A stretch of DNA of 42,248 bases from a virus. The stretch's first letter is position 1, and the number at the start of each line of letters is the position of its first letter. The position numbers and the translations under genes were made by a program. The notes under the pieces were generated by a model, which saw nothing but the letters and a program-made list of their open reading frames with translations, did no database searches and had not been told where the DNA came from. Below are positions 6,681-20,596 of the stretch, one piece after another. Location of the stretch: positions 1 through 42,248 of the IMG/VR virus record IMGVR_UViG_3300042344_000601; one strand, written 5' to 3'.

Positions 6681-6922
6681 TGCTCACCGACCAGCACACC
6701 GACCCGACGTGCGCGGCCTGCGGGGCGACGCACCAGAACAGCACCCTCTGCGACGAGTGCGCGCGCCGCGCGGCCGTGGCGCTCTCGCACGACGCGAAGC
6801 ACGTCTGCAACGACTGCGAATACCTGGGGCACATCTCGGTGAGCCTCGTGCGCACGTCGCTCGTCGTCGGTCACCTCCCCGAAGTCCGCTACGCGGCCGT
6901 CGAGATGGAAGGTGTGCTGTGA
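6680..6922 (+). CDS. Small zinc-ribbon-like protein
   Basis: This 80-residue protein overlaps its neighbours by start-stop sharing at both ends. Cysteines are arranged as CAACG (residues 11-14), CDEC (24-27) and CNDC (about 44-47), with nearby histidines. This suggests one or two structural zinc sites. Such small zinc proteins are common in phage early regions and often bind nucleic acid or host polymerase; the specific role here is unknown. Confidence 0.65.
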   Translation: MLTDQHTDPTCAACGATHQNSTLCDECARRAAVALSHDAKHVCNDCEYLGHISVSLVRTSLVVGHLPEVRYAAVEMEGVL

Positions 6923-8157
6923 TCGACGCCGCATCCCTCGACGTGCTCGAGCGCGTCACCAAGCGCCTCTTCGCCGCGAAGGTCTTCGCGAAGGACGTCA
7001 CCACCGAAGACCAGGCCTTCGCGGTGATCCTCACCGGCGCCGAGATGGGCTTCGAGCCCGCCACGAGCGCGCGGACCATCAGCATCCTGCACGGGAAGGT
7101 GTTCCCGGGTGCAGCCGCGATCGAAGCCGCGTGCGTGCGCCGCGCCGACGTCTGCAAGTACTTCCGCTGCGTCGAAACCACGGCGGCGCTGGCCATCTAC
7201 GAGACGGTGCGCGTCGGCGACGACCGTCCGCGCCGCATGTCCTACACCATGCAGATGGCCGAGCGCGGCGGGGCCGCGCAGAAGAACGGCACCTACCGCG
7301 CGCACCCCGAGGCGATGCTCCGCGCGCGCTGCGCGACGGCGCTCGCGCGGTCGGTGTACCCCGACCTCGTCGCCGGTGCGTACGACACGCGCGAAGACCC
7401 GAGCTTCGAGCGCGCCGCGGCGGTGACGCCGCCCGCGGTCGACAGCGACGACGAGAGCGCCTACGCCCTCTTCGCGCGCGACCTCGCGGGCGCCGCGCAC
7501 CTCGTCGACGTGCACACCGCGTGGCAGACGCACGCGCGGGCGCTGCACGAGGCCGACGCGACGCAGAGCGCCGCCGAGGCCGTGGGCGACTGGATGGGCG
7601 AGCACGGCTACTGCGTCGTCGCCACCGAGCAGCAGCTCATCTTGTCGGGCGCGTGGGGCGTCGATGAGCGCTCCCTCGCCGACGCCCTCGCGGCGCTCAA
7701 GACGGGCGCCGAGATCGTGGCGTGGTACGTCGGCGCGCGCGCCCAGGTGGAGGCGCTGCGCGACCCGAAGAGCTTCAAGACCTTCGTCGCTCGCTCGTGG
7801 TCGGCGCGCTCCGGCGTCGAAGCCGCGAAGCCCGGCAACGCCTTCGCGAAGGTCGTCGCCGCGCACCTCGCCGCGCAAGAGACGGCGCGCGAGGCCGCGG
7901 CCGACGAGCCCGCGCCGCCCGCGCCCATCGTCACCTCGAAGGGCGTCGAGCTCGCCGACGAGGCCGCGGTCGCGCAGCACATCGCGACCATCGACAACGT
8001 CACGCGGCTGGAGAACACCGCGCGCAAGCACGGCGCGCACCTGTGGGCCGTGGCGCCGCTCGTCGAGCGCGCCGCGGCGCTCCTGGGGGTGCACCCCGAC
8101 GAGGCCGACGTGTGGGTGGCGAAGCACGCGACCGACGGCGCGAAGGGAGGCGCGTGA
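6919..8157 (+). CDS. recT: RecT-like single-strand annealing protein
   Basis: This 412-residue protein starts at GTG 6919, overlapping the upstream stop. Residues 20-160 follow the RecT pattern: TGAEMGFEPATSARTISILHGKVF, then a Cys/Tyr/Phe strand region, then the conserved tail HPEAMLRARCATALARSVYPDLVAGAYDTRE. RecT proteins pair and anneal single-stranded DNA during phage recombination and replication. The C-terminal 200 residues are Ala-rich, helical and probably family-specific. No RecE- or lambda-exonuclease-like partner is adjacent. The VRR-NUC nuclease and DnaQ-like exonuclease downstream may take that role. Confidence 0.7.
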   Translation: MIDAASLDVLERVTKRLFAAKVFAKDVTTEDQAFAVILTGAEMGFEPATSARTISILHGKVFPGAAAIEAACVRRADVCKYFRCVETTAALAIYETVRVGDDRPRRMSYTMQMAERGGAAQKNGTYRAHPEAMLRARCATALARSVYPDLVAGAYDTREDPSFERAAAVTPPAVDSDDESAYALFARDLAGAAHLVDVHTAWQTHARALHEADATQSAAEAVGDWMGEHGYCVVATEQQLILSGAWGVDERSLADALAALKTGAEIVAWYVGARAQVEALRDPKSFKTFVARSWSARSGVEAAKPGNAFAKVVAAHLAAQETAREAAADEPAPPAPIVTSKGVELADEAAVAQHIATIDNVTRLENTARKHGAHLWAVAPLVERAAALLGVHPDEADVWVAKHATDGAKGGA

Positions 8158-8582: not shown

Positions 8583-9556
8583 AGAGCACCAGCGCCATCT
8601 TCGCGGAGGGGGCCATCGGCCTCTTGCGCCGCGCCCTCGCCGACGGGCTCTGCCTCGACATCACCGTCAACGCCACCGAGGCGCGCGCGGTGCTCGCCGA
8701 CGCCCGCGGCACCGAGCTCGCGCGCGAGACGCGCGGCGGGCAGCTCGCGCTCCCGCTGGCGCCCGCCGCGGTGCCCGCGCCCGTCGAGCCCCCCGTGCCC
8801 GCGGTCGACCCCGTGGCGCCCGGTCACCGCGTCATGCGCGCGGGTGATCTCGTGGTGGAGCGCATCTCCGGTGGGGCGACGCGTGATTGGGTCGTCGAGT
8901 CGGTGGACAAGGACGGGCCGACGCTGCGCCGCTCCGACCGCCCCGGCGCCACGCAAGCGGTGAAGTGGGGCCACATCACCCTCGACAGCGCCGACCTGTG
9001 GCGCCTCGCGTCGCCGTGGGATCGCCCCGGGGTTGGCGACCGCATCGAGCTCGACGGGGTGGCCGTCGAGGTGATGGGCGTCGACGACGAGGGGTTCATC
9101 TGGCGCACCGTCGAGGCAGGCGACGACCGCGACGAGGGCGAAGCGCTGTGGGCCGACGTGCTCCCGTTCGCCGTTGGCGTGTGGGTCACGCGCGATCCCG
9201 AAGCCGTCGAGGCGCCCGCCGTCGAGGCCGCGCCGCCCGCGAAGAAGACCCGCGCGAAGAAGGCGCGCGCCCCGAAGGTCGCCTCGACGGAACCCGCCGC
9301 GCCCGTACCCCATCGTCTCCAGAGCGTGACCGAGGCCGACGAGCTCGCGCACCGCGGCGAGCACTCGCTGATCGGGCTGCGCGGCGGGGAATGGCTCACG
9401 CTCGCGACGCGCGCGAAAGACGAGACGTTGCCCGAATGGCAGGTGCGCTGCACCACCGCGTCGAAGGCCGTGCGTGTGCGTGTGTACGACCGCGGCGCGC
9501 ACTGCACATGGGACAGCGCAGACGGCAACGAAGGCCACATCCAAGGGAACCCGTGA
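8579..9556 (+). CDS. Multidomain hypothetical protein with SH3-like beta segments
   Basis: This 325-residue protein starts at ATG 8579 (ATGA overlap). Residues 1-55 are helical. After a Pro/Ala/Val linker there are two short beta-rich segments, GDLVVERISGG....VVESVDKDG.TLRR and GDRIELDGVAVEVMGVDDEGFIWR, that look like SH3/KOW-type barrels. A Lys/Arg-rich linker (KKTRAKKARAPK, about 222-233) then leads to a beta-rich C-terminal domain. The basic linker suggests nucleic-acid contact. No known family is recognised. Confidence 0.55.
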   Translation: MKSTSAIFAEGAIGLLRRALADGLCLDITVNATEARAVLADARGTELARETRGGQLALPLAPAAVPAPVEPPVPAVDPVAPGHRVMRAGDLVVERISGGATRDWVVESVDKDGPTLRRSDRPGATQAVKWGHITLDSADLWRLASPWDRPGVGDRIELDGVAVEVMGVDDEGFIWRTVEAGDDRDEGEALWADVLPFAVGVWVTRDPEAVEAPAVEAAPPAKKTRAKKARAPKVASTEPAAPVPHRLQSVTEADELAHRGEHSLIGLRGGEWLTLATRAKDETLPEWQVRCTTASKAVRVRVYDRGAHCTWDSADGNEGHIQGNP

Positions 9557-9783
9557 TGCGACATCACCGACGCCTTCTCAAGCGCCTGTCGCTCCGCGCG
9601 GGCGTGCGCCTCGTGTACCGGCGCGTGCGCTACGTGTCGGCTGTCACCCTGGAGAGCGCCCTCCGCTGGGAGGTGCGCGCGTGGGCCTATGGCCACGCCT
9701 CCGCGGTGCGGTTCGGCACCGGCGTGACCCGCCGCGAGGCCATCGCCAACGCGGCCCGCACCGTCGCGAGGTACTACCTGTGA
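9556..9783 (+). CDS. Small basic protein
   Basis: This 75-residue protein overlaps both neighbours by start-stop sharing. It is very Arg-rich at the N-terminus (MRHHRRLLKRLSLRAGVRLVYRRVRY), then has a beta-hairpin-like section with W/Y residues and a C-terminal helix (TRREAIANAARTVARYYL). The ending resembles small phage proteins with a double-stranded RNA-binding-like helix, but this is weak. Nucleic-acid binding is plausible. Confidence 0.5.
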   Translation: MRHHRRLLKRLSLRAGVRLVYRRVRYVSAVTLESALRWEVRAWAYGHASAVRFGTGVTRREAIANAARTVARYYL

Positions 9784-10121
9784 GCGCCGCCACGAAGACC
9801 GCGCCCGCTGGCGCCTCCCAGCGCCGCCCTCCGGTGCGACGCACCATGATCGAAGTCGCGGCGCGTCGGCAGGCCGCGGAGGTCGCGCGCCCCGTCGACG
9901 ATGCGCTCCCCGACCCCGTGGCGATGCACGGCGACGAGCGCCAGGCCGTGCGCGAGCGGGCCGTGCAGCGCCTCCGCGCGATGGCGTTCCGCCTCATCGC
10001 GCAGTGCAACGCCGCGGCGGGCGGTGGCCCCGTCGACGAGCTCACCGACGCGCTCGACGAGCTCGAGGCGTGCGGCGCCGAAACGGTGCCGTGGCTGCGT
10101 GCTGCGCGGGGTGAGCGATGA
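9780..10121 (+). CDS. Hypothetical early protein
   Basis: This 113-residue protein starts at GTG 9780, overlapping the previous stop. Its N-terminus is basic and Pro/Arg-rich, and the remainder is helical, ending in ELTDALDELEACGAETVPWLRAARGE. No motif is recognised. Its stop overlaps the ATG of the DUF6884-like gene. Confidence 0.5.
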   Translation: MSAATKTAPAGASQRRPPVRRTMIEVAARRQAAEVARPVDDALPDPVAMHGDERQAVRERAVQRLRAMAFRLIAQCNAAAGGGPVDELTDALDELEACGAETVPWLRAARGER

Positions 10122-10561
10122 GCGCCGTGAAGGTCGGTGTCGTCGCGTGCTCGAAGACGAAGGCGCGTGGCCGATGCGCCGCCGTCGACCTCTACCGCGG
10201 GCGCACGTACCGCGCGGCGGTTGATCTTCTGCGCGCCTGGGGCTGCGAGCGCATCGTGATCCTGTCGGCGCTGCACGGCGCCATGCCGGATCACCGCGTG
10301 GTTGACCCGTACGAATGGAGCCTCTCGAAGCTGAACGCGATGCTCCGTCGCCAGTGGACCGACGCCGCGCGTGTCCAGATCGCATCCGCGCTTCGCACTG
10401 TTGGCGGCACGAAAGAGCTTGCCGACATCGATGTTCACGCGATCGTGCCCGCGGCCTATGCGGGCGCCCTCGACGGGCTTCCGCGCGTCACCCGGCACTT
10501 CGCGGGACTCCCGCAGGGCAAGCTCTTCGCGGCGCTCAAGGCCGCTCGGGAGGTTGCATGA
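10118..10561 (+). CDS. DUF6884-like protein (CSKTK motif)
   Basis: This 147-residue protein starts at ATG 10118. It has the hallmark VACSKTK at residues 9-15, followed by DLYRGRTYRAA and a VILSALHG.....VVDPYEWSL block. That is the pattern of DUF6884 proteins, often mislabelled as YaaA in phages. These have a Rossmann-like fold reminiscent of nucleoside or base-handling enzymes, and in some systems they occur near DNA-modification genes. The reaction is unknown. No 7-deazaguanine pathway gene is nearby. Confidence 0.6.
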   Translation: MSAVKVGVVACSKTKARGRCAAVDLYRGRTYRAAVDLLRAWGCERIVILSALHGAMPDHRVVDPYEWSLSKLNAMLRRQWTDAARVQIASALRTVGGTKELADIDVHAIVPAAYAGALDGLPRVTRHFAGLPQGKLFAALKAAREVA

Positions 10562-10686
10562 AGACCCTCGCGACCGTGTGCCTGAGCGGCTCTGCGCTGC
10601 TCGTGGCGTGTACGGACAACGGCTTTGCGATGGGGTGTGCCTTCTGCCTCTTCGTGGCGTGGCTGGCGCTGGAGTCTCTGTCGTGA
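10558..10686 (+). CDS. Small membrane peptide
   Basis: This 42-residue frame begins at ATG 10558 (ATGA overlap) and ends at a stop overlapping the helicase GTG. It has a signal-like start (MKTLATVCLSGSALLVACTD) with a possible lipobox and a second hydrophobic segment (CAFCLFVAWLALESL). It is an odd product between a DUF6884-like gene and a helicase. Superinfection-exclusion peptides can look like this, but there is no direct evidence. Confidence 0.45.
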   Translation: MKTLATVCLSGSALLVACTDNGFAMGCAFCLFVAWLALESLS

Positions 10687-12014
10687 AGATCACCCTCCGA
10701 CCGCACCAGGAGCGCGCCATCGCGGCGGTGCGGCGCTGCTACGCCAAGAAGGTGCGGCGCGTGCTGCTCGTGGCCCCTACGGGCTTCGGGAAAACTGCGG
10801 TGAGCTCGGTGCTCATCGCGTGGGCGGTTGGCAAACAGCGCAAGGTGCTCTTCTTGGTGCACCGGCGCGAGATCGTGAAGGACACGCACCGCCGGCTCGT
10901 GGCCGCTGGCGTGGCCGCGGGGCTCATCATGGCCGATGAGAAGCCCACCGAAGCGCCGGTGCAGGTTGCGTCGGTGGCCACCATCGTGGCGCGTGAGACC
11001 TTCCCGGCCGCGGATCTGATCGTGTGGGATGAGGCGCACCACACAGCCGCGGAGAGCTACCGCGCCATCGCGGCGCAGTACCCGGCCGCGTGGCACCTGG
11101 GGCTCACCGCGACGCCCGAGCGCGCCGACGGGGTGGGCCTGCGCGACGCCTTCGACGAGCTCGTGGTGGGCGCGACCGTGCGCGAGCTTCAAGAGGCTCT
11201 CGACCCGGCGACGGGCGCGCCGTACCTCGCGGCCTGCGAGGTCGTGTCGACGCGGCGCGCGCTGGAGTCTGGCACCCTGTCGGAAGACCCGGTGACGGCG
11301 TGGAAGCGCCACGCGCCGGGGCGCTCTACGGTGCTCTTCGCGCGCACCGTCGACGAGTCGAAGGCGCACGCCGCGGCGTTCAACATCGCGGGCATCCCCG
11401 CGGGGCACATCGACGGCACCACGCCCGCGCGGGACCGCGATGCGACGCTCGCGGCCTTCGCGGCGGGTGAGCTGCTGGTGCTGTGCAACGTGTACGTGCT
11501 CACCGAGGGGTGGGATTGCCCGCGGGCGAAGGTGTGTCTTCTGGCGCGCTCGTGCGGGAGCGCGGCGACCTATCTCCAGATGATCGGGCGCGTGCTGCGC
11601 GCGCACCAGGGCGAGAGCGCGCTGCTCATCGACCTCGTAGGGGCCATGCACCTGCACGGATACCCCGACGAAGAGCGCGTGTTCAGCCTCGACGGGATCG
11701 AACGCAAGCCGAAGAAGGATCGCCCCTGGATTCGGCAGTGCCTCACGTGTGGCTATTGCGTGCTGGGGGCGAAGGCGGGACCGGCGTGCGCGCGCTGCGG
11801 CACGGGGTGGCCCGCGCAGGCGCGCTCGACGGTGGTGCATGAGCACCTGGGCACCGTGCGCGGGCTCGCTCTGCCGACACGGGAGGAGCTCGGCGCGGAG
11901 TACCGCGAATGGCTCAAGACCGAGCGCGACCGGAAATACAAGCCCTTTTGGGCGGCGGTTCAGTTCAAGAAAAAATACGGGGCTTACCCCAACAAGATGG
12001 GAGTGCGGGCATGA
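10683..12014 (+). CDS. DEAH-box superfamily 2 helicase with C-terminal zinc ribbon
   Basis: This 443-residue protein starts at GTG 10683 (GTGA overlap). A Q-motif-like LRPHQERA is followed by Walker A APTGFGKT (31-38), DEAH (116-119), motif III-like GLTATPER (about 139-146), a motif V region with LTEGWDCP, and motif VI QMIGRVLR. The C-terminus has CLTCGYC...CARCG, a likely zinc ribbon. The architecture fits phage SF2 helicases of the UvsW/RadD type that remodel recombination and replication intermediates. It sits next to a VRR-NUC nuclease, a common pairing. Confidence 0.85.
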   Translation: MKITLRPHQERAIAAVRRCYAKKVRRVLLVAPTGFGKTAVSSVLIAWAVGKQRKVLFLVHRREIVKDTHRRLVAAGVAAGLIMADEKPTEAPVQVASVATIVARETFPAADLIVWDEAHHTAAESYRAIAAQYPAAWHLGLTATPERADGVGLRDAFDELVVGATVRELQEALDPATGAPYLAACEVVSTRRALESGTLSEDPVTAWKRHAPGRSTVLFARTVDESKAHAAAFNIAGIPAGHIDGTTPARDRDATLAAFAAGELLVLCNVYVLTEGWDCPRAKVCLLARSCGSAATYLQMIGRVLRAHQGESALLIDLVGAMHLHGYPDEERVFSLDGIERKPKKDRPWIRQCLTCGYCVLGAKAGPACARCGTGWPAQARSTVVHEHLGTVRGLALPTREELGAEYREWLKTERDRKYKPFWAAVQFKKKYGAYPNKMGVRA

Positions 12015-12361
12015 GCAGCGAAGCGAAGGTTCAAGACGACATCCGGATCGCGCTGGGGCAACGCCCCGATTTCATCGCGTGGCGTAACAACGTCGGCGTC
12101 GCGAAGCACTGGAACGAGAAGACGCAGCGCGAAGACATCGTGAAGTACGGGCTCTGCGCGGGCTCTTCCGACCTCGTCGGCATCGCGCGCGGCGGGCGCT
12201 TCGTGGCGCTCGAAGTGAAGAGCGAGACGGGGCGCGTCACGAAAGAGCAGGCGACGTTCATTGCCCTCGTGCGCCACATGGGCGGCGTCGGCGAGGTGGT
12301 GCGCAGCGTCGAAGAGGCGATGGCCGCAGTGGATCGCGCCGTGAAGGGCGGTGACCTGTGA
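12011..12361 (+). CDS. VRR-NUC domain nuclease
   Basis: This 116-residue protein is the typical length for a stand-alone VRR-NUC. It has SSEAKVQDDIR at the N-terminus (E4, Q8), then SDLVGI (D54), then FVALEVKSETGRVTKEQ (E68, K70, Q80), the PD-(D/E)XK catalytic layout. Phage VRR-NUC proteins cut branched DNA such as Holliday junctions. Its ATG overlaps the helicase stop, so the two are probably made together. Confidence 0.8.
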   Translation: MSSEAKVQDDIRIALGQRPDFIAWRNNVGVAKHWNEKTQREDIVKYGLCAGSSDLVGIARGGRFVALEVKSETGRVTKEQATFIALVRHMGGVGEVVRSVEEAMAAVDRAVKGGDL

Positions 12362-12708
12362 AGGCCCTCATCACCAAGGCGCGCATGATCGCCAACATCC
12401 TGCACCTCGGCGCCCGCTACGAGGCCGCGAGCGTGCTGGGGGAGTGCGCCGACGCGCTGGAGTCGCTCTTTGCTCGCGCGCACGAGGCCGTCGCCGTCGA
12501 GAAGGCGTGCGAGATGTCGATGCGCGCAGCGCAGGAGGACCTTCGCCGCGAGCGCGCCGACAACGCGCGCCTGCGAGACATCGTCGACGTCGCCGTGGTC
12601 GAGCTCGAAGGCGTGCACGCGCACGACTGCGCGCCTTGGCAGAATGGGCGCTGCGACTGCGAAGTCGGGCTGGCGCGGGCGACGCTCGCGAAGGCCGGTG
12701 CGCGATGA
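12358..12708 (+). CDS. Hypothetical coiled-coil protein
   Basis: This 116-residue protein starts at GTG 12358 (overlaps previous stop). The first 85 residues are helical with coiled-coil character (AAQEDLRRERADNARLRDIVDVAVVELEGV). The C-terminus has HDCAPWQNGRCDCEVG, a small His/Cys cluster that could bind metal. No family is recognised. Confidence 0.5.
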   Translation: MKALITKARMIANILHLGARYEAASVLGECADALESLFARAHEAVAVEKACEMSMRAAQEDLRRERADNARLRDIVDVAVVELEGVHAHDCAPWQNGRCDCEVGLARATLAKAGAR

Positions 12709-13142
12709 CCCCGCTCCTCGCCGCAGCGTGCATCCTCCTCAGCGGCGCCGCGTGGCGCGCCCATCGTCGAGCCGGAGAGGCTGAGCGCCGACTGCTCATG
12801 TCCCGTGCCCTGCTCGCGGGCGAGCGCGAGGCGCGCATCGCGGCGGTGGCCAGCGCCGAGGCCGCGCAGAAGCGCCTCGACGATGCCCGCGCCACCATGC
12901 TCACGGTCGCCGAGGCCGCGGCCGCAGACGCCGCGCAGAAGCCCCCGGTGGCCTATGCGGGGCCGGTGCGGTGCGCGCGGCGCCCCATCACCGAGGCCGC
13001 GCCGGAACTCCCGCATCAGGTGTTCGGCCTGGTCGTCGAGGTGATCTGCAACCACATGGCGCTCCCGTTCGGCTACCTCCTCCCCGCGCAGCGTGCGGAC
13101 GAGGGTGACCGGGTGTTCGTCACTCGCTGGGGGTCGGCGTGA
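12705..13142 (+). CDS. Membrane-anchored coiled-coil protein
   Basis: This 145-residue protein starts at ATG 12705 (ATGA overlap). An N-terminal hydrophobic anchor (residues 2-16) is followed by a long charged helix (about 20-85), rich in Arg/Glu/Ala as in i-spanins, and a C-terminal part with two cysteines and aromatic residues. The spanin-like outline is unexpected in a replication operon. It might tether replication proteins to the membrane. No family is recognised. Confidence 0.5.
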   Translation: MTPLLAAACILLSGAAWRAHRRAGEAERRLLMSRALLAGEREARIAAVASAEAAQKRLDDARATMLTVAEAAAADAAQKPPVAYAGPVRCARRPITEAAPELPHQVFGLVVEVICNHMALPFGYLLPAQRADEGDRVFVTRWGSA

Positions 13143-14116
13143 TGCTCACCGCACCCGACGCAGACCTCTTCCGTCTCGGCGCGCGCGCCCACGAGCTCGC
13201 GTGCGTGCGGCGCTCCGTGAGCGTGGCCGTCGCCATCGACGTCACGCGCGAGGGCTACGTGCACCATCGCATCGACGGGCGCAGCGTGCTCCCGCATGGG
13301 TTCCTCCCCGACGTGGCCGACGCGCACCCCGCGGCGGTGCGGGCGCTCGCGGCACTCGCCGACCCGGAGCCCTTCGACCCGCGCGACTTCGTGTGCGAGG
13401 TGCAGCCCCAGGCCGCGCCGCCCGCGTCGCCGCCCCCCGCGCAGCGCGCGGCGCCCGTGGCCGACGCGCCCCCGGAGATCGTGTGCGTGGTGGACACCGA
13501 GACCACGGGACTCGTGCGCGAGGGCGGGCGCATCACCGAGATCGCGTGCGTGCGGGCGAACCTGGCGACGCGGCGGATCGTGGGCATCTGGCCGACGCGC
13601 GCGGAGCCCGGGCAACTGCTTGACCCGGGCGTGCCCGTGCCGTGGCACATCACGAAGCTCACGGGCATCACATCGAAGATGCTCGCGGGGCAGCCGACCC
13701 TCGCGAGTGTGTGGCCGTCGCTCGCGGGCTTCGTCGGCACCGACCCTGTGGTGGCGCACAACGCGGCCTTCGACCGGGCGATGTTCGAAGCCGAGCTCGA
13801 GCGCATGGGGCTCTTCGGTCCCGAATGGCCGCGCTGGCGCTGGCACTGCTCGCAGCAGATCGCGAAGCGCGTCGTGCCGGGGCTCCCCAGCTACAGCCTC
13901 AGCGGGCGCGACGGCGCGCAGGGGCTGCGGCACTTCCTCGCGCTGGGCACCGAGACGGCGCACCGGGCTCACGGCGACGTGTTGACCACGTGCAAGCTCC
14001 TCGCGGCCCTGCGCGAGCGCGCGGGCGGGCCGTGGGCGACCTGGTGCGGCGCGGCGCATGTGTGGGGCGTCGGCAAGGCCGCGCCCTCCGCATCGACGCT
14101 CAAGGGGCTGGTGTAG
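13142..14116 (+). CDS. DnaQ-like 3'-5' exonuclease (DEDDh)
   Basis: This 324-residue protein starts at ATG 13142, overlapping the upstream stop. An N-terminal domain of about 90 residues is followed by a Pro/Ala linker, then the exonuclease fold: Exo I VVDTETTG (D118, E120), LTGITSKML, Exo II VVAHNAAFDR (D211), Exo III AHRAHGDVLTTCKLL (H274, D279). It is a DNA polymerase III epsilon-type nuclease acting 3' to 5' on DNA. No phage DNA polymerase gene is visible, so it may proofread for the host polymerase or process recombination ends with the RecT-like protein. Confidence 0.85.
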   Translation: MLTAPDADLFRLGARAHELACVRRSVSVAVAIDVTREGYVHHRIDGRSVLPHGFLPDVADAHPAAVRALAALADPEPFDPRDFVCEVQPQAAPPASPPPAQRAAPVADAPPEIVCVVDTETTGLVREGGRITEIACVRANLATRRIVGIWPTRAEPGQLLDPGVPVPWHITKLTGITSKMLAGQPTLASVWPSLAGFVGTDPVVAHNAAFDRAMFEAELERMGLFGPEWPRWRWHCSQQIAKRVVPGLPSYSLSGRDGAQGLRHFLALGTETAHRAHGDVLTTCKLLAALRERAGGPWATWCGAAHVWGVGKAAPSASTLKGLV

Positions 14117-14118
14117 CC

Positions 14119-14337
14119 ATGGCCGACACCGTCAATCACCCGCCGCACTACGGCGGCGAGAGCAACCTCTACGAGGCCATCAAGGTCATCGAGGCGTGGC
14201 AGTTGGGCTTCTGCCTTGGGAACGTGGTGAAGTACCTCGCGCGCGCGGGCAAGAAGGGCGCGCTCGTCGAGGATCTCAAGAAGGCCCGCTGGTACCTCGA
14301 CCGCGAGATCGCGCGCCTCGAAGGCGGTGCGCGATGA
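14119..14337 (+). CDS. DUF3310 protein
   Basis: This 72-residue protein starts at ATG 14119, two bases after the previous stop. It has NHPPHYGG at residues 6-13, then EAIKVIEAW.LGFCLGNVVKYLARAGKKG....DLKKARWYLDREI. That is the full DUF3310 signature, often annotated as SaV-like or nucleotide-kinase-associated in phages. The family is small and widespread in phage nucleotide and replication regions; its biochemical role is not settled. Confidence 0.85.
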   Translation: MADTVNHPPHYGGESNLYEAIKVIEAWQLGFCLGNVVKYLARAGKKGALVEDLKKARWYLDREIARLEGGAR

Positions 14338-15377
14338 GCCGCTCCGCAGAGGCCTACGGCACGCGGCGCGGCGCGACGCGCGAGCGCTTCGAGCGCTGCA
14401 CCCCGGCGAGGCCGTGCCCGGTGTGCGGGCGCAAGAAGTTCTGCTCCGTCGGCGCGTACACGGTCGTGTGCACGCGCGAGGCGGAAGGGGCGCTGCACGC
14501 GGGCGAGAACGCCATCGGGACGTTCTACGTTCACGCGCTCGACGGCGCGGCCATCGCGGCGCGGGTGGCGCGCGGGCCCGTCGCGCATCACCAGACCAGC
14601 GCGCGCGCGCCCGCCGACGTACTCGACCGCGCGTACCGGGTGGCGCTCGCGGGGCTCTCGCTCACGGGCGACGACCGCGCGGGGCTCGTGGCGCGCGGGC
14701 TCGACGCGGGGGCCATCGTCGCCGCGCAGTATCGCTCGCTCCCTGAGCGGGGGCGGGCGGCGCTCGCGCGGGCCGTCACCGAGGCCGTGGGGGTCGACCT
14801 CGCACCGACGGTGCCCGGCGTCGTGTGGCGCGAGGGCGAGCGCGGGGGCTACTGGTCGTTCGCGGGGTGGCCGGGCCTCGTGATCCCCGTGCGCGACATC
14901 GACGGGCGCGTGGTGGCGCTCAAGGTCCGGCGCACGGGGGAGTGCGCGAGCTACGAGCGGTACACCTGGGTGTCGTCGACCTCGACGGCGGGACCGGGGC
15001 CGGGAGCTCCCGTGCACGTACCGGCGGCAGCGCTGGCGTTGCGGGGGCGCACGGGCGCGCAGCGCCTGGTGATCACCGAGGGCGAGCTCAAGGCCGACGT
15101 GGCGACGGCGCTCTCCGGCGTGCCCGTCGTCGGCGTGCCCGGTGTGGGGGCGTGGCCCGCGGCCGTCGAGGTGGCCCGCGTGTGGGGCGCGGCGCGCGTC
15201 GACGTGGCCTTCGACAACGACGCGCGGACGAACAAGGCCGTGGCCGACGCGCAAGAGAAGCTCGTGCGGGCGCTGCGCGCGTGCGGCTTCGAGGTGGGCC
15301 TGCCGCGGTGGCCCGAACGGTTCAAGGGCCTCGACGATTACCTGTTGGCTCGGTCGCGTGAATGGACGGTGGCGTGA
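14334..15377 (+). CDS. TOPRIM-type primase
   Basis: This 347-residue protein starts at ATG 14334 (ATGA overlap). A CHC2-like zinc motif is made by C28, C31, C37 and C46. A middle domain has FAGWPGLVIPVRDIDGRVVALKVRR, common in phage primases. TOPRIM follows with LVITEGELKAD (E249) and VDVAFDNDA (D294, D296). The C-terminus GLDDYLLAR matches the last TOPRIM helix region. It should make RNA primers for the phage replisome together with the next gene, a P-loop helicase whose ATG overlaps its stop. Confidence 0.8.
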   Translation: MSRSAEAYGTRRGATRERFERCTPARPCPVCGRKKFCSVGAYTVVCTREAEGALHAGENAIGTFYVHALDGAAIAARVARGPVAHHQTSARAPADVLDRAYRVALAGLSLTGDDRAGLVARGLDAGAIVAAQYRSLPERGRAALARAVTEAVGVDLAPTVPGVVWREGERGGYWSFAGWPGLVIPVRDIDGRVVALKVRRTGECASYERYTWVSSTSTAGPGPGAPVHVPAAALALRGRTGAQRLVITEGELKADVATALSGVPVVGVPGVGAWPAAVEVARVWGAARVDVAFDNDARTNKAVADAQEKLVRALRACGFEVGLPRWPERFKGLDDYLLARSREWTVA

Positions 15378-17692
15378 TGCTCGACGACGTGTTTTCGGAA
15401 ATGGGCGGGCTCACGGGCATCGAAGCCGAACGCGCGGCGGCGCTCGACGTGGCGGCGGCGCGGGCGGCGGCGGGCGACGTGTCGGCGCTCGACGGGCTCG
15501 TCGAGCGGGTGCGCGGCGACCAGCGCGCGGCGTTCGATTCGCTGGTGCTCCGCGCGGCCGTCGAGCAGCAGGACACGGAGCCGCTCGCGGCCGACGAGCT
15601 CGGGCGCGCGCTCCGGGGCGTCGAGGGGTTCCGGTTCTCGGCGTGGCGCGAGGCGGTGAAGATCGCGCGCCGCACCCTCAAGAAAGAGCGGGCCGACGCC
15701 GCGAAGGCTGAGGCCGAGAAGGCGGCGCATGGGCGCGCCGTGATGCGCGAGGCCGAGGCGACCGCGAAGGCGTCGGCGAGGGCGGCGGCGAGGCAGGGCG
15801 CGGCCGACGAGCTCGCAGAGCACTACGGCGTGATCGACGTCGATCAGGTGACGTACAGCAGCGAGCCGGGGCGCATGTGGATGGAGCACATGGTCGGCAG
15901 CGGGCGCGACGAGCGGAGCGTGACCGACACCCTGTGCGAGTTCTCGGCGCGCATCGTCGAGCTCGTGGTCGACATCGACGGGCCGGGCGAGAGGCCGCGG
16001 CCGGCGCTCTATGCCCTGTCGATCGTGTCGCGCGCGCGGGGCCTCGAGCGCGCATACCGCGTCGAGGTGACCGCCGAGGATTGGGGCGCCGCGCAGTGGC
16101 CGGAGAGGGTGATTCTGCGCCCGGGGCTGGGGCCGTACGGGCGGGCAACGCGCGAGCACGTGCGGCGCGCCATCGAGGCGCTGTCGCCCAACCCCCCGAC
16201 CCGCTACCGCTTTCGGTACGTCGGCTGGGCGCAGCACGAGGGGCGGGCGATCTACCTCCACGGGGGCGGCGCCATCGACGCCCAGGGCGACGTCGAGGGG
16301 CTCCGCGCAGAGCCTCCCGTCGAGCGCGTCAACCGCTTCGCGCTCCCGTCGCTCGTCGACTTCGACGCCGCGCGAGACGTCGGTGCGATCGTGCACCTCC
16401 TGTCGCACGAGCCCGCGCCCGCGGTCGTTCCGCTCGTGGGCCTCGCGCTCCGGGCGGCGCTGGGCGGGGCGCGCCACGCGGCGCACGTCACGGGGCGCTC
16501 GGGGCTCGGGAAGAGCGTGCTGCTCGGGTGCGTGGCGCAGCTCTTCGGGCCGTCGTTCTCGGCGCGGGAGCCGCTGCTCTCGTGGCGCGCGCGGGGCGTG
16601 ACGGTGCAGGGCTTCATGGAGGTGCTGGCCTGCTCGCGCGACGTGTTCGTGCAGGTGGACGATCTGCAGCGCAACCCCGAGAGCCAGGCGCGCGCCATCG
16701 CGGTGTTCCCGGCGCACTTCGAGGGGACGTCGCAGATCAAGGGCCGCGCGCGCGGCGGGTCGCTCACGCTGCGCGGGCCTCAGTCGGTGCTCGGGAGCTC
16801 CGGGGAGACGCTCCCCGACGAGCCCAGCGTGCGCAACCGCGTGCTCTTGCTCGACCTCGACGCGCGGCCTACGCCGCGGCTCGACGCGGGGAAGGACAGC
16901 GCGAAGGCGCGCGGCGACCGGGGCGAGCTCGCCCGCGGTATGGCGGCGTTCATCCGGTGGTGGGCGGCGCGGCACGACGACAACCGCAAGAAGCTCCCCG
17001 AGCTCGAGCGCGCGACGTCGGAGCGGTGGGGCCTCGGCGCCGAGGCGCGCGCCGCGGAGGTCGCTGGGGCCGCGGCCGTCGGGCTGGAGGCGTTCTTCGC
17101 GTTCCTGAAGGACACCAGCGCCGCGAGCGAGGCCGACGTGAAAACGATGCGCGAGCGGGCGAAGGTCGCGCTTCGGGCGGCGACCATCACGCACCTGGGG
17201 CACGTGGAGTCGGAGAGCAACTGGAGGCGGTTCCTCGAACTCACCGCGCAGGCCCTCACGTCGGGGCGCGCGCACGCGCTCCACGGGCGACGCTCCGGGC
17301 CGGTGTTCGCGTGCGGCGAGCCCGACGAGCCGAGCTCGTGGGGCTGGAGCCCGCGCACCTCGACCACGGCGACCGACGACGGGCCGCGCACCTCGCGCTC
17401 GTGGTCGCCGGGCGGGATGTGCGTGGCGTACACGCGCGACGACAAGCCGGGGCGCGTGCTGCTCGCGCCGGGCCCGGCGCTGCGCGTGGCGATCGACCTC
17501 GCCCGCACCGAGGGGCGCCCGCTGCACCTCGACGTCACGGCGCTCGCGCGCGAGCTCGTCGCCGAGGGCGTGTGCGGCGCGACGGCGAAGGGGCGCCCGG
17601 TGGGGCGCGTGAAGTGGAGCTGGGGCAGCACCGACGTCGAGGGCTTCGAGGTGCCAGCGGCGGCGCTGGGGCTCACGGGAGGCGGGTCGTGA
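15377..17692 (+). CDS. DUF927-like replicative helicase / ATPase
   Basis: This 771-residue protein starts at ATG 15377 (overlapping stop; GTG/ATG further upstream less likely). Residues 1-150 are helical and charged (KKERADAAKAEAEKA). The ATPase core has Walker A GRSGLGKS (373-380), Walker B VFVQVDD (D428, D429) and a downstream Arg motif VRNRVLLLDLD. The layout (GRSGLGKSVLLG...SW....GVTVQGFMEVLA) matches DUF927 phage helicases, which usually follow a primase. The C-terminus includes a Ser/Thr/Arg-rich linker and a small domain. It probably unwinds the phage origin. Confidence 0.75.
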   Translation: MLDDVFSEMGGLTGIEAERAAALDVAAARAAAGDVSALDGLVERVRGDQRAAFDSLVLRAAVEQQDTEPLAADELGRALRGVEGFRFSAWREAVKIARRTLKKERADAAKAEAEKAAHGRAVMREAEATAKASARAAARQGAADELAEHYGVIDVDQVTYSSEPGRMWMEHMVGSGRDERSVTDTLCEFSARIVELVVDIDGPGERPRPALYALSIVSRARGLERAYRVEVTAEDWGAAQWPERVILRPGLGPYGRATREHVRRAIEALSPNPPTRYRFRYVGWAQHEGRAIYLHGGGAIDAQGDVEGLRAEPPVERVNRFALPSLVDFDAARDVGAIVHLLSHEPAPAVVPLVGLALRAALGGARHAAHVTGRSGLGKSVLLGCVAQLFGPSFSAREPLLSWRARGVTVQGFMEVLACSRDVFVQVDDLQRNPESQARAIAVFPAHFEGTSQIKGRARGGSLTLRGPQSVLGSSGETLPDEPSVRNRVLLLDLDARPTPRLDAGKDSAKARGDRGELARGMAAFIRWWAARHDDNRKKLPELERATSERWGLGAEARAAEVAGAAAVGLEAFFAFLKDTSAASEADVKTMRERAKVALRAATITHLGHVESESNWRRFLELTAQALTSGRAHALHGRRSGPVFACGEPDEPSSWGWSPRTSTTATDDGPRTSRSWSPGGMCVAYTRDDKPGRVLLAPGPALRVAIDLARTEGRPLHLDVTALARELVAEGVCGATAKGRPVGRVKWSWGSTDVEGFEVPAAALGLTGGGS

Positions 17693-17913
17693 GCGAGCGC
17701 GAGCCGGTCACCATCTGCGCCGAGCTCGCGTTGGTGCCGTGGGGCGGGGCGTCTGGCGCCGTCTCGGCCGCGGCCTACGCGCAGTACCTGAGCCTCCAGG
17801 TCGACCGCGAGGCCGCCGACGAGGCTGGGATGCTCGACGATTGGGGCCGCGTGGTCGACTTCGACGGCGCGCGCTTCGAGGACTGGATTGACCTCGAGGT
17901 GCGTCATGGGTGA
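17689..17913 (+). CDS. Small hypothetical acidic protein
   Basis: This 74-residue protein starts at GTG 17689 (overlaps helicase stop). The sequence is acidic, with Asp/Glu clusters (DREAADEAGMLDDWGRVVDFDGARFEDWIDLE). No motif is recognised. It is coupled to the replicative helicase gene and overlaps the next gene by 8 bp. Confidence 0.5.
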   Translation: MSEREPVTICAELALVPWGGASGAVSAAAYAQYLSLQVDREAADEAGMLDDWGRVVDFDGARFEDWIDLEVRHG

Positions 17914-18109
17914 CCGGGCCCCCGTGGTGAGCGCCACCATGCACCGCGAGCTCAACCGCGCGCGGCTGGCCTACAACCGCGTGCGCAACGACGTGCAGTG
18001 GACTCGCGCGAACACGCCCGAGCGCGCCGCCGCGAGGGAACGCGTGCGCGTCGCCCGGGAGCGCATCGCCCGCGCGATGGCGGCGATCCTCGGGGTGCAC
18101 CGTGGGTGA
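17906..18109 (+). CDS. Small basic helical protein, last gene of the early operon
   Basis: This 67-residue protein starts at ATG 17906, inside the end of the previous gene. It is almost entirely helical with many arginines (ELNRARLAYNRVRNDVQW, ARERVRVARERIARAM). Nucleic-acid or protein contact through a coiled coil is plausible. It is the last gene before a non-coding, repeat-bearing region. Confidence 0.5.
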   Translation: MGDRAPVVSATMHRELNRARLAYNRVRNDVQWTRANTPERAAARERVRVARERIARAMAAILGVHRG

Positions 18110-18366
18110 GTCGCGCACGCTGGTCGCAATGACGCGCTTCATTCGGGTCGGGCCTCGTGTGACGCGGTGCGGCACGACCCGAATGAAAGCCGCGATTTAC
18201 CTCGCGTTTCGGTTCATTCGGGTCGGGTCGGGTCGGGTGTCGCGACCCGATGGTTTCCCTGTGGTTTCGCGGGGTTATGGTCATTCGGGTCGGGGGTCGT
18301 GGTTTTTCGCATACACGTATGTAGGGGGAGAAAATAAAAAATCTCGTGGTGGGGTGGAGGGGTGTC
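18110..18366. other. Non-coding region left of the recombinase with repeat cluster
   Basis: This 257-bp stretch has no convincing gene. It holds four copies of the 12-mer TCATTCGGGTCG (18139-18150, 18175-18186 inverted, 18214-18225, 18281-18292), a partial copy at 18243-18250, and a tandem GGTCG run (18221-18238). Beyond the last copy are a small palindrome CATAC-AC-GTATG (18309-18320) and an A-rich island (18326-18345) that stands out against the GC-rich background. Candidates are an attachment region, iteron-type origin or recombinase promoter. Confidence 0.6.
18139..18292. repeat. 12-mer repeat cluster, left of recombinase (four copies)
   Basis: The repeat unit TCATTCGGGTCG occurs at 18139-18150, 18214-18225 and 18281-18292 on the forward strand and at 18175-18186 on the reverse. 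Three of the four share one extra outer T. Matching copies lie at 20178-20314, on the other side of the recombinase gene. Confidence 0.8.
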
Positions 18367-18510
18367 ATGGGTGACACACCGAAGCTCCGTCTGGTGCGAC
18401 CCCTCACGGCGCGGGAGAGGGTGCCCCCGGAGATGCTTCCCTTCGTCGACGCCCTCGTGAGTCTCTTCGTCGCCCGCATCGAACGTCAGAAAACAGGAAC
18501 CGACCGATGA
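18367..18510 (+). CDS. 47-residue protein coupled to the recombinase
   Basis: The frame runs from ATG 18367 to a TGA overlapping the recombinase ATG (ATGA). The product (MGDTPKLRLVRPLTARERV..., ending ERQKTGTDR) has a basic N-terminus and an amphipathic helix (PFVDALVSLFVARIERQ). A GGGGTGGAGGGG stretch at 18350-18361 could serve as its ribosome-binding site. Its coupling to a serine recombinase makes a directionality factor or regulator possible, but it is very short and unproven. Confidence 0.5.
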   Translation: MGDTPKLRLVRPLTARERVPPEMLPFVDALVSLFVARIERQKTGTDR

Positions 18511-20129
18511 AAGCCGCCATCTACGCCCGACGGAGCACCACGGAGCACCAGGCCGCGAGCCTCGACGTGCAGGTCGAAGAGGCCCGGCGCTGGTGCGCTG
18601 CGCGGGGGTGGGAGGTGGTGGCGACCTACCTCGAAGACGGCGTGTCGAGGGCCGAGTTCGTCAACCGCCCGGCGCTGGGGAAGCTCCTCGCCGGTGCAGC
18701 CGATGGGCTGTTCGAAGCGCTGGTGATGCGCGATGACAGCCGCCTCGGCGGCGACATGTACCGCACCGGCATGGTGCTCCAAGACCTGCACGATGGAGGC
18801 GTCGCGGTCTGGTACTACGCCAGCTCGGAGCGGGTGTCGTTCGACGACCCGACGGCGAAGCTCATCAGCGCCGTGAAGCTCTACGCCTCGGAGACGGAGC
18901 GCCTGAAGATCACCGGCCGTGTGCGGGAGCACCTTGAGCACCGGGCCCGCAAGGGTCTCAACGTCGGGGGCCGCGTCTACGGCTACCGCAACGAGCGGGG
19001 ACCCGACGGGGTGCACTATGTCGTCGTTCCCGAAGAGGCCGCGGTGGTGTGCGAGATCTTCGAACGCCACGCCACTGGTCAAGGGATCAGGGGAATCGCC
19101 AAGGCACTGAACGCGCGAATGGTGCCCGGTCCGAGGCCGGGGCGCCCGTGGGCGCCGGGTGGAATCCACGCGATGCTCCGTCGGGAGCGCTACGCCGGGG
19201 TGCTCGAATGGGGGCGCGTCGGCGCTGAATACCGGGGCGGCACCCGACGCACCATCGAGCGCCCCGTCGCTGAGCGCATTCGCGTGGAACGGCCTGAGCT
19301 AGCTATCGTGTCGGCGGACCTGTGGCAGAGGGCCCAGGCCCGTGTGGTGGCCACGGCCGGCACACACACGAAGCGCTACGGCCGCGAGCCCGCGTACCTG
19401 CTCACGGGCCTTGGGCGCTGCGAGGCGTGCGGCGGGCCCATCCGGGCATCGACGGGCAAGAGCGGCAAGACGATGGTGCGCCTCTACGTCTGCGGGCGAC
19501 ACCACGACAGCGGGGCGGCGGCGTGCCCGGTGTCGACCCGTCGGCGCGTCGAGCTCGTCGACGCTGCGGTGCTCGAGCGGGTGCGTGCGATGCTCTCGCC
19601 CGTGGTCGTCGACGCGGTGCTCGAGGGGGTGCGGGCTCACATCGAGGCCGGCGACCCTGGCCCCGACGTCGAGCGCGCCCAGCTCGTGGCGTCGGTGCGG
19701 CGCCTGGTGGGCGAGAGCGCCCGCCTCGCCGACGCCTACGCCTCTCAGGGCGGAGAGGCGATCCTGTCGGCGCTGCAGGCCCGGGAGGCGTCGCTGTCTG
19801 CGGCCCGTGCCCGTCTGGCCGTGCTCGACGCTGCGGCACGCCCTGTGGCCCCCACGTGGGCCGACGTCGAAGCGCAACTGCGGGCCGAGGTGACGGACCT
19901 GCGTACGGCGCTGGCCGACGACACGGCGAGGGCGAGGGCGGCGCTCAAGACGCTGGCCGTCGGCGGCGAGCTTCTTTTCCGCTCGGTGGCCACGGGGCTT
20001 CGAAAAGCGAAAGGCACCGCCTGGGAGGTGAGGGGGTTCCTTTCCCTCCCAGGCAGTGCCCTTCTGTTCGCGACCCCAATGGGTGGCCAACAGAACGGAA
20101 GCGACTTCCCGCTCGTGGTGGCGGCGTAA
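18507..20129 (+). CDS. int: Large serine recombinase (phage integrase)
   Basis: This 540-residue protein has the resolvase catalytic domain at residues 1-150: YARRST with nucleophile S10, RDDSRLGGD (R75, R79), and the E-helix ASETERLKI. The recombinase domain (about 160-280) has GLNVGGRVYGY and IRGIAKALN. A zinc-ribbon domain has C305, C308, C329 and C340. A long Ala/Arg/Leu coiled coil spans about 375-475, as in phiC31- and Bxb1-type integrases. It should integrate the phage by joining attP and attB. Its last 50 codons overlap a large imperfect palindrome, and repeat clusters flank the gene. It lies between the replication and packaging modules rather than next to the repressor. Confidence 0.9.
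   Translation: MKAAIYARRSTTEHQAASLDVQVEEARRWCAARGWEVVATYLEDGVSRAEFVNRPALGKLLAGAADGLFEALVMRDDSRLGGDMYRTGMVLQDLHDGGVAVWYYASSERVSFDDPTAKLISAVKLYASETERLKITGRVREHLEHRARKGLNVGGRVYGYRNERGPDGVHYVVVPEEAAVVCEIFERHATGQGIRGIAKALNARMVPGPRPGRPWAPGGIHAMLRRERYAGVLEWGRVGAEYRGGTRRTIERPVAERIRVERPELAIVSADLWQRAQARVVATAGTHTKRYGREPAYLLTGLGRCEACGGPIRASTGKSGKTMVRLYVCGRHHDSGAAACPVSTRRRVELVDAAVLERVRAMLSPVVVDAVLEGVRAHIEAGDPGPDVERAQLVASVRRLVGESARLADAYASQGGEAILSALQAREASLSAARARLAVLDAAARPVAPTWADVEAQLRAEVTDLRTALADDTARARAALKTLAVGGELLFRSVATGLRKAKGTAWEVRGFLSLPGSALLFATPMGGQQNGSDFPLVVAA
19977..20100. repeat. Imperfect palindrome of about 124 bp in the recombinase 3' end
   Basis: The inner arms are 20011-20028 and 20045-20062 (16 of 18 paired, including a run of 10) with a 16-nt centre. 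The outer arms 19977-19993 and 20083-20100 (TTCCG..C..TGGCCAC type) also pair with few mismatches. The whole element lies in coding sequence for the last 50 residues of the recombinase. Confidence 0.65.
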
Positions 20130-20177
20130 ATCTTTTTTCTGCGCGCGTGAAGGGAAACACCGAGCAGCCCGACCCGA

Positions 20178-20314
20178 CGACCCGAATGAAGAAAACACCT
20201 TGAAAACAAGCTCATCATTAGGGTCGTGTCTCTCGACCCGAATCGACCCGAATAGAAGAGAGAGATAGAAGAAAGCCCGCGTTTTGCGGCTTTTCGCGAG
20301 AATCATTCGGGTCG
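20178..20314. repeat. 12-mer repeat cluster, right of recombinase
   Basis: Copies of the same unit as on the left lie at 20178-20189 (inverted) and 20303-20314 (forward). Between them are two adjacent 10-base copies CGACCCGAAT (20234-20243 and 20244-20253). They lie in a 245-bp non-coding stretch (20130-20374) that is A-rich for this genome and contains a purine tract (20254-20274). Confidence 0.8.
20272..20294. terminator. Candidate bidirectional terminator after the recombinase
   Basis: An 8-bp stem with one bulged C (AAAGCC-C-GC paired with GCGGCTTT) and a GTTTT loop has short A and T tracts on its two sides. It could stop transcription in either direction between the recombinase and the packaging operon. 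Confidence 0.4.
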
Positions 20315-20340: not shown

Positions 20341-20380
20341 TGCCATGTGCCAGAGATTCGGCACAATGCGGCACATGGCA
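20341..20380. promoter_or_regulatory. Inverted repeat overlapping the start of the pre-terminase gene
   Basis: Perfect 11-bp arms TGCCATGTGCC (20341-20351) and GGCACATGGCA (20370-20380) are separated by 18 nt. A third half-site GGCACA (20360-20365) lies inside. The ATG at 20375 is within the right arm. It could be an operator for a late-gene regulator or an RNA hairpin hiding the start codon. Confidence 0.55.
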
Positions 20381-20596
20381 GAACCGAAGCCCTGCGGCCT
20401 CTGTGGTGGATCGAAGGTGTTCCGACGTGACCTGTGCCGGTGCTGCTACCGGAAGCTCGCGCAGTGCGGCATCGACCTCCCTCCCGCCGCAAAGCCCGGC
20501 CCCCCAACGTCGCTCGAGCGGGTGATCGCGCTGTGGATCGCGCGTAGCCCCCAGGTGCGCGCCGTCATGGCGGCGGCGCTGGAGGGCGCAGCGTGA
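20375..20596 (+). CDS. Small zinc-finger protein ahead of terminase
   Basis: This 73-residue protein starts from ATG 20375; in-frame ATGs at 20345 and 20366 would add up to 10 residues. It has CGLCGGSKVFRRDLCRCCYRKL, four or five cysteines typical of a small treble-clef or zinc ribbon, then a helical C-terminus. It opens the packaging and head operon and overlaps the small terminase start. A regulatory or HNH-accessory role is possible, but no HNH catalytic motif is visible. Confidence 0.6.
   Translation: MAEPKPCGLCGGSKVFRRDLCRCCYRKLAQCGIDLPPAAKPGPPTSLERVIALWIARSPQVRAVMAAALEGAA

Follow-up and report, generated by a model that had tools for sequence, protein, structure and literature searches.

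Short repeats on both sides of a phage serine recombinase gene form a candidate iteron origin downstream of an AAA+ helicase gene

Background

Phage P4 carries two separate clusters of a repeat recognised by its alpha protein, ori and crr, and both are needed. In SaPIs, the C-terminal domain of Rep recognises an iteron origin located directly downstream of its own gene (PMC7581432). In SCCmec, Cch2 binds repeats in the gap that separates cch2 from ccrC, a serine recombinase gene, and this gap is regarded as the putative origin; SCC pattern 2 features three iterons of 5 nt (PMC7581432).

The sequence described here, referred to as the window, is a whole IMG/VR record of 42,248 bases, the full entry, and belongs to a contractile-tailed phage. 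Clusters of the 12-mer TCATTCGGGTCG flank its gene for a large serine recombinase (LSR) on both sides. We interpret these repeats as iterons of the phage replication origin, most likely bound by the AAA+ helicase of DUF927/Cch type encoded upstream; the probability assigned to this reading is about 0.73.

The locus resembles SCCmec in the order of its elements, a helicase gene, a repeat-bearing non-coding gap and a large serine recombinase gene; moreover, the best match of the helicase model is Cch, and the top NCBIfam match of the LSR is CcrB (4e-32), below the cut-off. It differs in being part of a tailed phage, while SCCmec is a chromosome cassette; its repeats are 12-mers in either orientation that flank the recombinase gene, where SCC pattern 2 has its three short iterons; and its helicase gene is separated from the array by two small genes. 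The likeness to SaPIs lies in a self-loading initiator helicase with an iteron origin directly downstream, DUF927 kinship being traced via Cch; the repeat sequence is different, however, the array is split by the integrase operon, and binding in the window is putative. As in P4, one short motif occurs in two separated clusters and in both orientations, but in P4 the clusters are separated by kilobases and surround the region of the initiator gene, whereas those of the window flank an integrase gene. Phages with VapE/D5 helicases, such as Pseudomonas U5, Marinobacter PS3, Acidovorax ACF1, Paenibacillus ApiWellbeing, Corynebacterium Dina and Streptococcus Javan630, similarly feature a non-coding gap after the primase-helicase gene, with 4–9 copies of a phage-specific 7–8-mer, typically beside an AT-rich core; their motifs, in contrast, are mostly of the GGRACA type and their arrays are uninterrupted. 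The locus most likely combines a known element, the iteron origin of a self-loading AAA+ helicase, with an unusual one, an LSR operon within the array.

Results

Organization of the locus

The left side of the record carries genes for RecT, a helicase, an exonuclease and a primase; terminase, portal, capsid, sheath and baseplate genes are found on the right side. Around the repeats, the order is: AAA+ helicase, two small genes, left cluster, 47-aa ORF, LSR, right cluster, Cys-rich gene, terS/terL. The relevant features are reported in Table 1. The true start of the primase-like gene may be internal. The LSR matches the PHROG integrase family at 5.5e-78; no tRNA gene is present in the window as an attachment target. 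The motif is absent from all three relatives (L013, L093, L094) in which homologues of the small Cys-rich protein are found.

Two further features of the record were observed. The 14-mer CGACGTGGCGCGCG, one mismatch being allowed, occurs 11 times genome-wide, in dispersed positions (including 310, 496, 5461, 8390, 11248, 26152, 32499 and 41643) and in 10 of 11 cases on the + strand. At the left end, some alternative-frame ORFs receive PHROGs labels.

Table 1. Position of repeat copies, AT-rich patches and neighbouring genes in the window
Feature	Position	Strand	Basis
Primase-like gene, TOPRIM-like DUF3854, helicase's partner	14058..15377	+	Pfam DUF3854 1.2e-9; PHROG DNA primase 6.5e-6
AAA+ initiator-type helicase gene, DUF927/Cch-like, proposed repeat binder	15362..17692	+	P-loop GRSGLGKS; homology, model
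Repeat copy L1	18139..18150	+	exact 12-mer
Repeat copy L2	18175..18186	-	exact 12-mer
Repeat copy L3, followed by GGGTCGGGTCGGGT	18214..18225	+	exact 12-mer
9-base partial copy CGACCCGAT	18243..18251	-	seen in sequence; kept in L007 and L008
Repeat copy L4	18281..18292	+	exact 12-mer
AT-rich patch, proposed unwinding element	18303..18342	.	33% GC, record's lowest 40-mer
47-aa ORF, overlaps LSR start (ATGA)	18367..18510	+	open frame; no Pfam match
Large serine recombinase (LSR)/integrase	18507..20129	+	Resolvase 1e-20, Recombinase 3e-18, Zn_ribbon_recom 1.5e-10
Repeat copy R1	20178..20189	-	exact 12-mer
AT-rich patch, right gap	20185..20224	.	35% GC
Repeat copy R2, one mismatch (TCATTAGGGTCG)	20215..20226	+	
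Repeat copy R3	20234..20245	-	exact 10-base core ATTCGGGTCG
Repeat copy R4	20244..20255	-	exact 10-base core ATTCGGGTCG
Repeat copy R5	20303..20314	+	exact 12-mer
Small Cys-rich protein, kept upstream of terS in relatives	20375..20596	+	homologues in L013, L093, L094

Repeat clusters

Exact copies of TCATTCGGGTCG, counted on both strands over the whole record, are six, four to the left of the LSR gene and two to its right, with none outside the two clusters. This agrees with the original prediction, where clusters in both orientations had been described on the two sides of the recombinase gene, and nowhere else. For the right gap, the prediction of two exact copies was borne out, while that of two additional ones had to be revised, since five copies are recognisable there; the total in 18139-20314 is 9. 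When up to two mismatches are allowed, the sole further match is found at 20071, on the - strand, within the LSR gene.

The clusters are real and non-random, and look functional. TCATTCGGGTCG is missing from 198 of 200 sequences simulated by an order-4 Markov model, and in only one of 200 such simulations did any 12-mer reach four copies in a 200-bp stretch; when all 9-mers of the window were compared without bias for clustering, the motif came first (Poisson 1e-14). Orientation is mixed and spacing uneven, the distances between centres being 36, 39 and 67 bp on the left, and 37, 19, 10 and 59 bp on the right: in both respects the array departs from classical plasmid iterons, which are direct repeats of 17–22 bp at helical spacing.

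The same LSR is found on three contigs: L007 and L008 retain both clusters, while L009 retains the right one, the region of the left cluster being reached only by L007 and L008. These contigs are the motif-cluster carriers found, and the LSR is present in 3 of 3; among them, no related phage with the repeats and without the recombinase was found, a combination that the original prediction had named as evidence against itself. No uninterrupted array of TCATTCGGGTCG, nor an empty site where the two clusters are joined into one, was found among relatives and viral collections. Three sequences from the latter (L100-L102) contain one inverted motif pair each, with no cluster and none of the genes of this phage.

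In L008, a Mom-family DNA-modification gene (6826-7617; PF25680, 5e-25), adjoining a stretch 99.9% identical to the window, takes the place of window positions 17693-18124, which contain the two small genes. Homology between the two sequences resumes at 18125, immediately left of L1. L008 keeps the clusters all the same, so neither small gene is an obligate partner of the repeats.

Properties of the non-coding gaps

The mean GC content of the record is 72%, and its lowest-GC 40-mers fall in the left and right gaps, confirming the A-rich patches originally noticed in both. An AT-rich element is therefore found beside the repeats in each gap; its role in unwinding is putative. Copies L1 and L2 generate a near-palindrome of 50 bp (18138-18187), with 17-nt arms 94% complementary; its symmetry is confined to the 17 outermost bp on either side, the inner 16 bp being asymmetric.

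An open frame spans the left cluster, but was rejected as coding, since substitutions between window and L008, as read off the alignment, change amino acids; the cluster is accordingly regarded as non-coding. Substitutions affect 1 of 48 motif positions versus 13 of 177 others, a difference that is not significant (p = 0.31). Searches for RNA families produced microRNA matches alone, which, being below threshold, were attributed to chance. GC-skew, suggested as a check for an origin, turned out to be uninformative: there is no minimum at the clusters, and the cumulative maximum is located about 2–3 kb to the right.

Two other potential structures were observed. A terminator-like hairpin, AAAGCCCGCGTTTTGCGGCTTTT, is seen by eye at 20269-20293, between R4 and R5, and is absent from the listing of the scan also used for promoters; LSR transcription possibly stops here. 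Inside the LSR gene, at the 3' end of its coding sequence, lies a 74-bp near-palindrome (20000-20073), with 29-nt arms 79% complementary and a perfect inner 10-bp stem, which folds better than shuffled sequences (z -2.8) and could be a terminator, an attP-like or a regulatory element.

The helicase upstream of the array

A Pfam search gave no direct match for the window helicase, nor for a C-terminal HTH_56 in it; its assignment to the DUF927/D5/SF3 AAA+ initiators is consequently made through its relatives. The protein is 37% identical to that of locus L126, which matches DUF927 at 8e-4, and a more distant homologue, from L134, contains both DUF927 (6e-50) and HTH_56, the Cch helix-turn-helix domain (1.7e-10). 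A profile built from eleven helicase homologues matched, in PDB, a 'Pathogenicity island protein' (8tch), a 'Primase' (6k9c) and Cch (5dgk). For the AlphaFold model, which is of low confidence (mean pLDDT 52.6) and derives from an input alignment containing a DUF927 plus Cch-HTH protein, the structure matched best in PDB is that of SCCmec Cch (5dgk, E 9e-8); MCM, AAV Rep, SaPI5 primase-helicase and SV40 T antigen are also matched. Most of them are helicases of the origin-opening or self-loading type. Folding from the single sequence (pLDDT 40.6) was of no use.

Multiple short non-coding repeats, as expected for an iteron origin, are found downstream of the helicase gene, in the slot where relatives also have them. 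The array begins 447 bp past the helicase stop, the two small genes lying in between.

Repeat arrays in related phages

The survey used the window primase as a query and considered eleven loci (L126-L135 and L138), downstream region included, with DUF3854 primases 31–47% identical to it. In 9 of the 11, the top repeat cluster of the 10–17 kb locus sits in the gap after the primase/helicase gene, the first copy being found 0–236 bp past the stop. These arrays consist of 4–10 copies, mostly in both orientations, each of a different 8-mer (AACAATCT, AGTCCGCA, ACTTCCGC, ACATTCCG, ACCGTACA, CTGTAACA, ACTTGGAA, TACCCACA, GCGCGAAA). Assuming that the slot makes up about 6% of a locus, a binomial calculation gives about 5e-10, a value which is only indicative, because the cut-off for the slot was chosen and refined after the first relatives had been seen.

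For the tenth locus, L126, the array (GCTGACAA) is found after an integrase gene which, in turn, follows the helicase (8773-13115); the integrase is of the tyrosine type (Phage_integrase, 8.5e-20). L126, whose helicase is the closest homologue of that of the window, is thus a second case of an integrase located between helicase and array. The eleventh locus, L129, encodes a DnaB helicase (3.8e-61) and has no array, as is also the case for L093 and L094, whose TerL proteins are 70% and 59% identical to that of the window: the array is absent in 3 of 3 loci with DnaB helicases. In L136, a further relative, whose helicase is of the D5_N type, no array could be detected, which makes it a true exception to the slot rule. 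The non-coding gaps of the relatives measure 0.24–0.78 kb; the two gaps of the window, without the LSR operon, add up to about 0.46 kb.

L013, whose TerL is 97% identical to that of the window, lacks both the LSR and TCATTCGGGTCG. In its slot, which follows the gene for a VapE-type helicase (3.1e-35), eight GGGAAC-type repeats surround an AT-rich stretch. L124, with a VapE 66% identical to that of L013, carries the same AGGGAACA array: the motif follows the helicase, even though the TerL of L013 is so similar to that of the window. Of the named phages whose helicases are of the VapE/D5 type, 6 of 16 show a clear array at this position, indicating a rule that is common, not universal, in this group. 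The presence of arrays after AAA+ helicases in most primase relatives, and of none after DnaB, lends good support to one of the options originally listed, an iteron origin that closes the replication operon.

Other observations concern the repeat sequences themselves. VapE/D5 arrays from unrelated phages (L108, L109, L110, L112, L119, L121, L013, L124) share a GGRACA-like flavour (GTGGGACA, GGGGTGAC, TAGGAACA, CTGCAACA, GGGACAAC, GGAACAAG, AGGGAACA), a hint that they may be recognised in a similar way. A purine-rich core, 'TATRxxGGRRRR', occurs in the origins of other phages at 0.42 versus 0.05 per kb; although suggestive, it was dropped as a shared origin core, being found in 4 of 17 loci only. 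Strong short-repeat clusters are also present in four related loci: L144 (15587-15887, CAGGTTCG, 13 copies), L139 (15202-15489, ACCCGGTC, 8 copies), L018 (1-169, AAGCGACA, 13 copies) and L076, about 5 kb upstream of TerL (CGACCCCG, 8 copies).

Alternative explanations

The repeats might be operators, where a phage regulator would control the promoter of the LSR operon, in the left gap, and that of the Cys-rich gene and terminase operon, in the right one. This is conceivable, since both gaps precede transcription units: each cluster is immediately upstream of one on the + strand, and irregular spacing and mixed orientation are compatible with such a role. We regard it as unlikely, however. No sigma-70-like promoter was found in either gap, by a scan which is weak, the host being unknown, and no regulator gene was identified; the pair of small genes next to the left cluster is dispensable, as shown by its replacement in L008, where the clusters stay. 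Operators would also leave unexplained why the top clusters of relatives follow AAA+ helicases, and not DnaB.

Quite improbable is a role in integration, with the near-palindrome 18138-18187 acting as attP and the other copies as extra half-sites for the LSR. About 50 bp is the usual size of a serine-integrase attP, and this imperfect inverted repeat, near the integrase gene, has the appropriate size and shape; in addition, the LSR accompanies the motif in every carrier found. On the other hand, the att sites of serine integrases are short and simple and are not known to include accessory arrays, and the core of the palindrome is asymmetric. A search for host and prophages returned one distant LSR, from Anaerolineae (27%), and no attL/attR junction; in that genome two dispersed copies of the motif are found, versus three for a reversed-pattern control. 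Finally, the arrays of relatives occupy the same slot without any LSR. For attP accessory sites and operators, both anticipated in the original prediction, positive support is limited to position and to the 50-bp near-palindrome.

That the repeats are the ends of a recombinase cassette moving as a unit, as was also proposed, is very improbable: they do lie on both sides of the LSR, and homology with L008 is lost just left of the cluster, at 18125, but the segment exchanged in L008 is located beyond the clusters and comprises the small genes, not the LSR, the many copies in both orientations are unlike a pair of terminal repeats, no empty site was found, and the same-slot arrays of relatives without LSR weaken the idea, as such repeats are not LSR-specific in kind.

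Discussion

If the array is an iteron origin, its mode of action may be modelled on SaPI Rep and SCCmec Cch2: the helicase would attach to the TCATTCGGGTCG repeats through its DNA-binding part and, as hexamers, melt the AT-rich patch at 18303-18342, and synthesis would then be initiated by the DUF3854 primase. The LSR operon (18367-20129) would sit inside the iteron array, which for this reason appears as two clusters; both halves may be needed for activity. Some findings count against an origin: the offset of 447 bp, versus 0–236 in relatives, the 6 of 16 VapE/D5 phages with a clear array, the lack of one in L136, the uneven spacing, the absence of a GC-skew minimum, and substitutions that avoid the motif only weakly.

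A bipartite iteron origin might also work as a switch around the integrase, off while the phage is integrated and on when it is circular, with no need for a repressor; this we consider rather unlikely. The attP of a serine integrase normally adjoins its gene, and integration would for this reason separate the clusters. With attP anywhere between them, one half of the array would come to lie at each end of the prophage, at a distance of about 40 kb from the other, and excision would rejoin them.

For uncultivated phages, these results suggest a rule by which origins may be located: the strongest short-repeat cluster of the locus, in the gap after an AAA+ helicase gene of the DUF927, DUF5906, DUF3987 or VapE type. 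Each such helicase is predicted to read its own 8–12-mer, and helicase/iteron pairs might then serve as orthogonal origin systems. In the phage described here, where an integrase gene lies within the putative origin array, one may ask whether integration physically splits, and thereby silences, the origin of the prophage.
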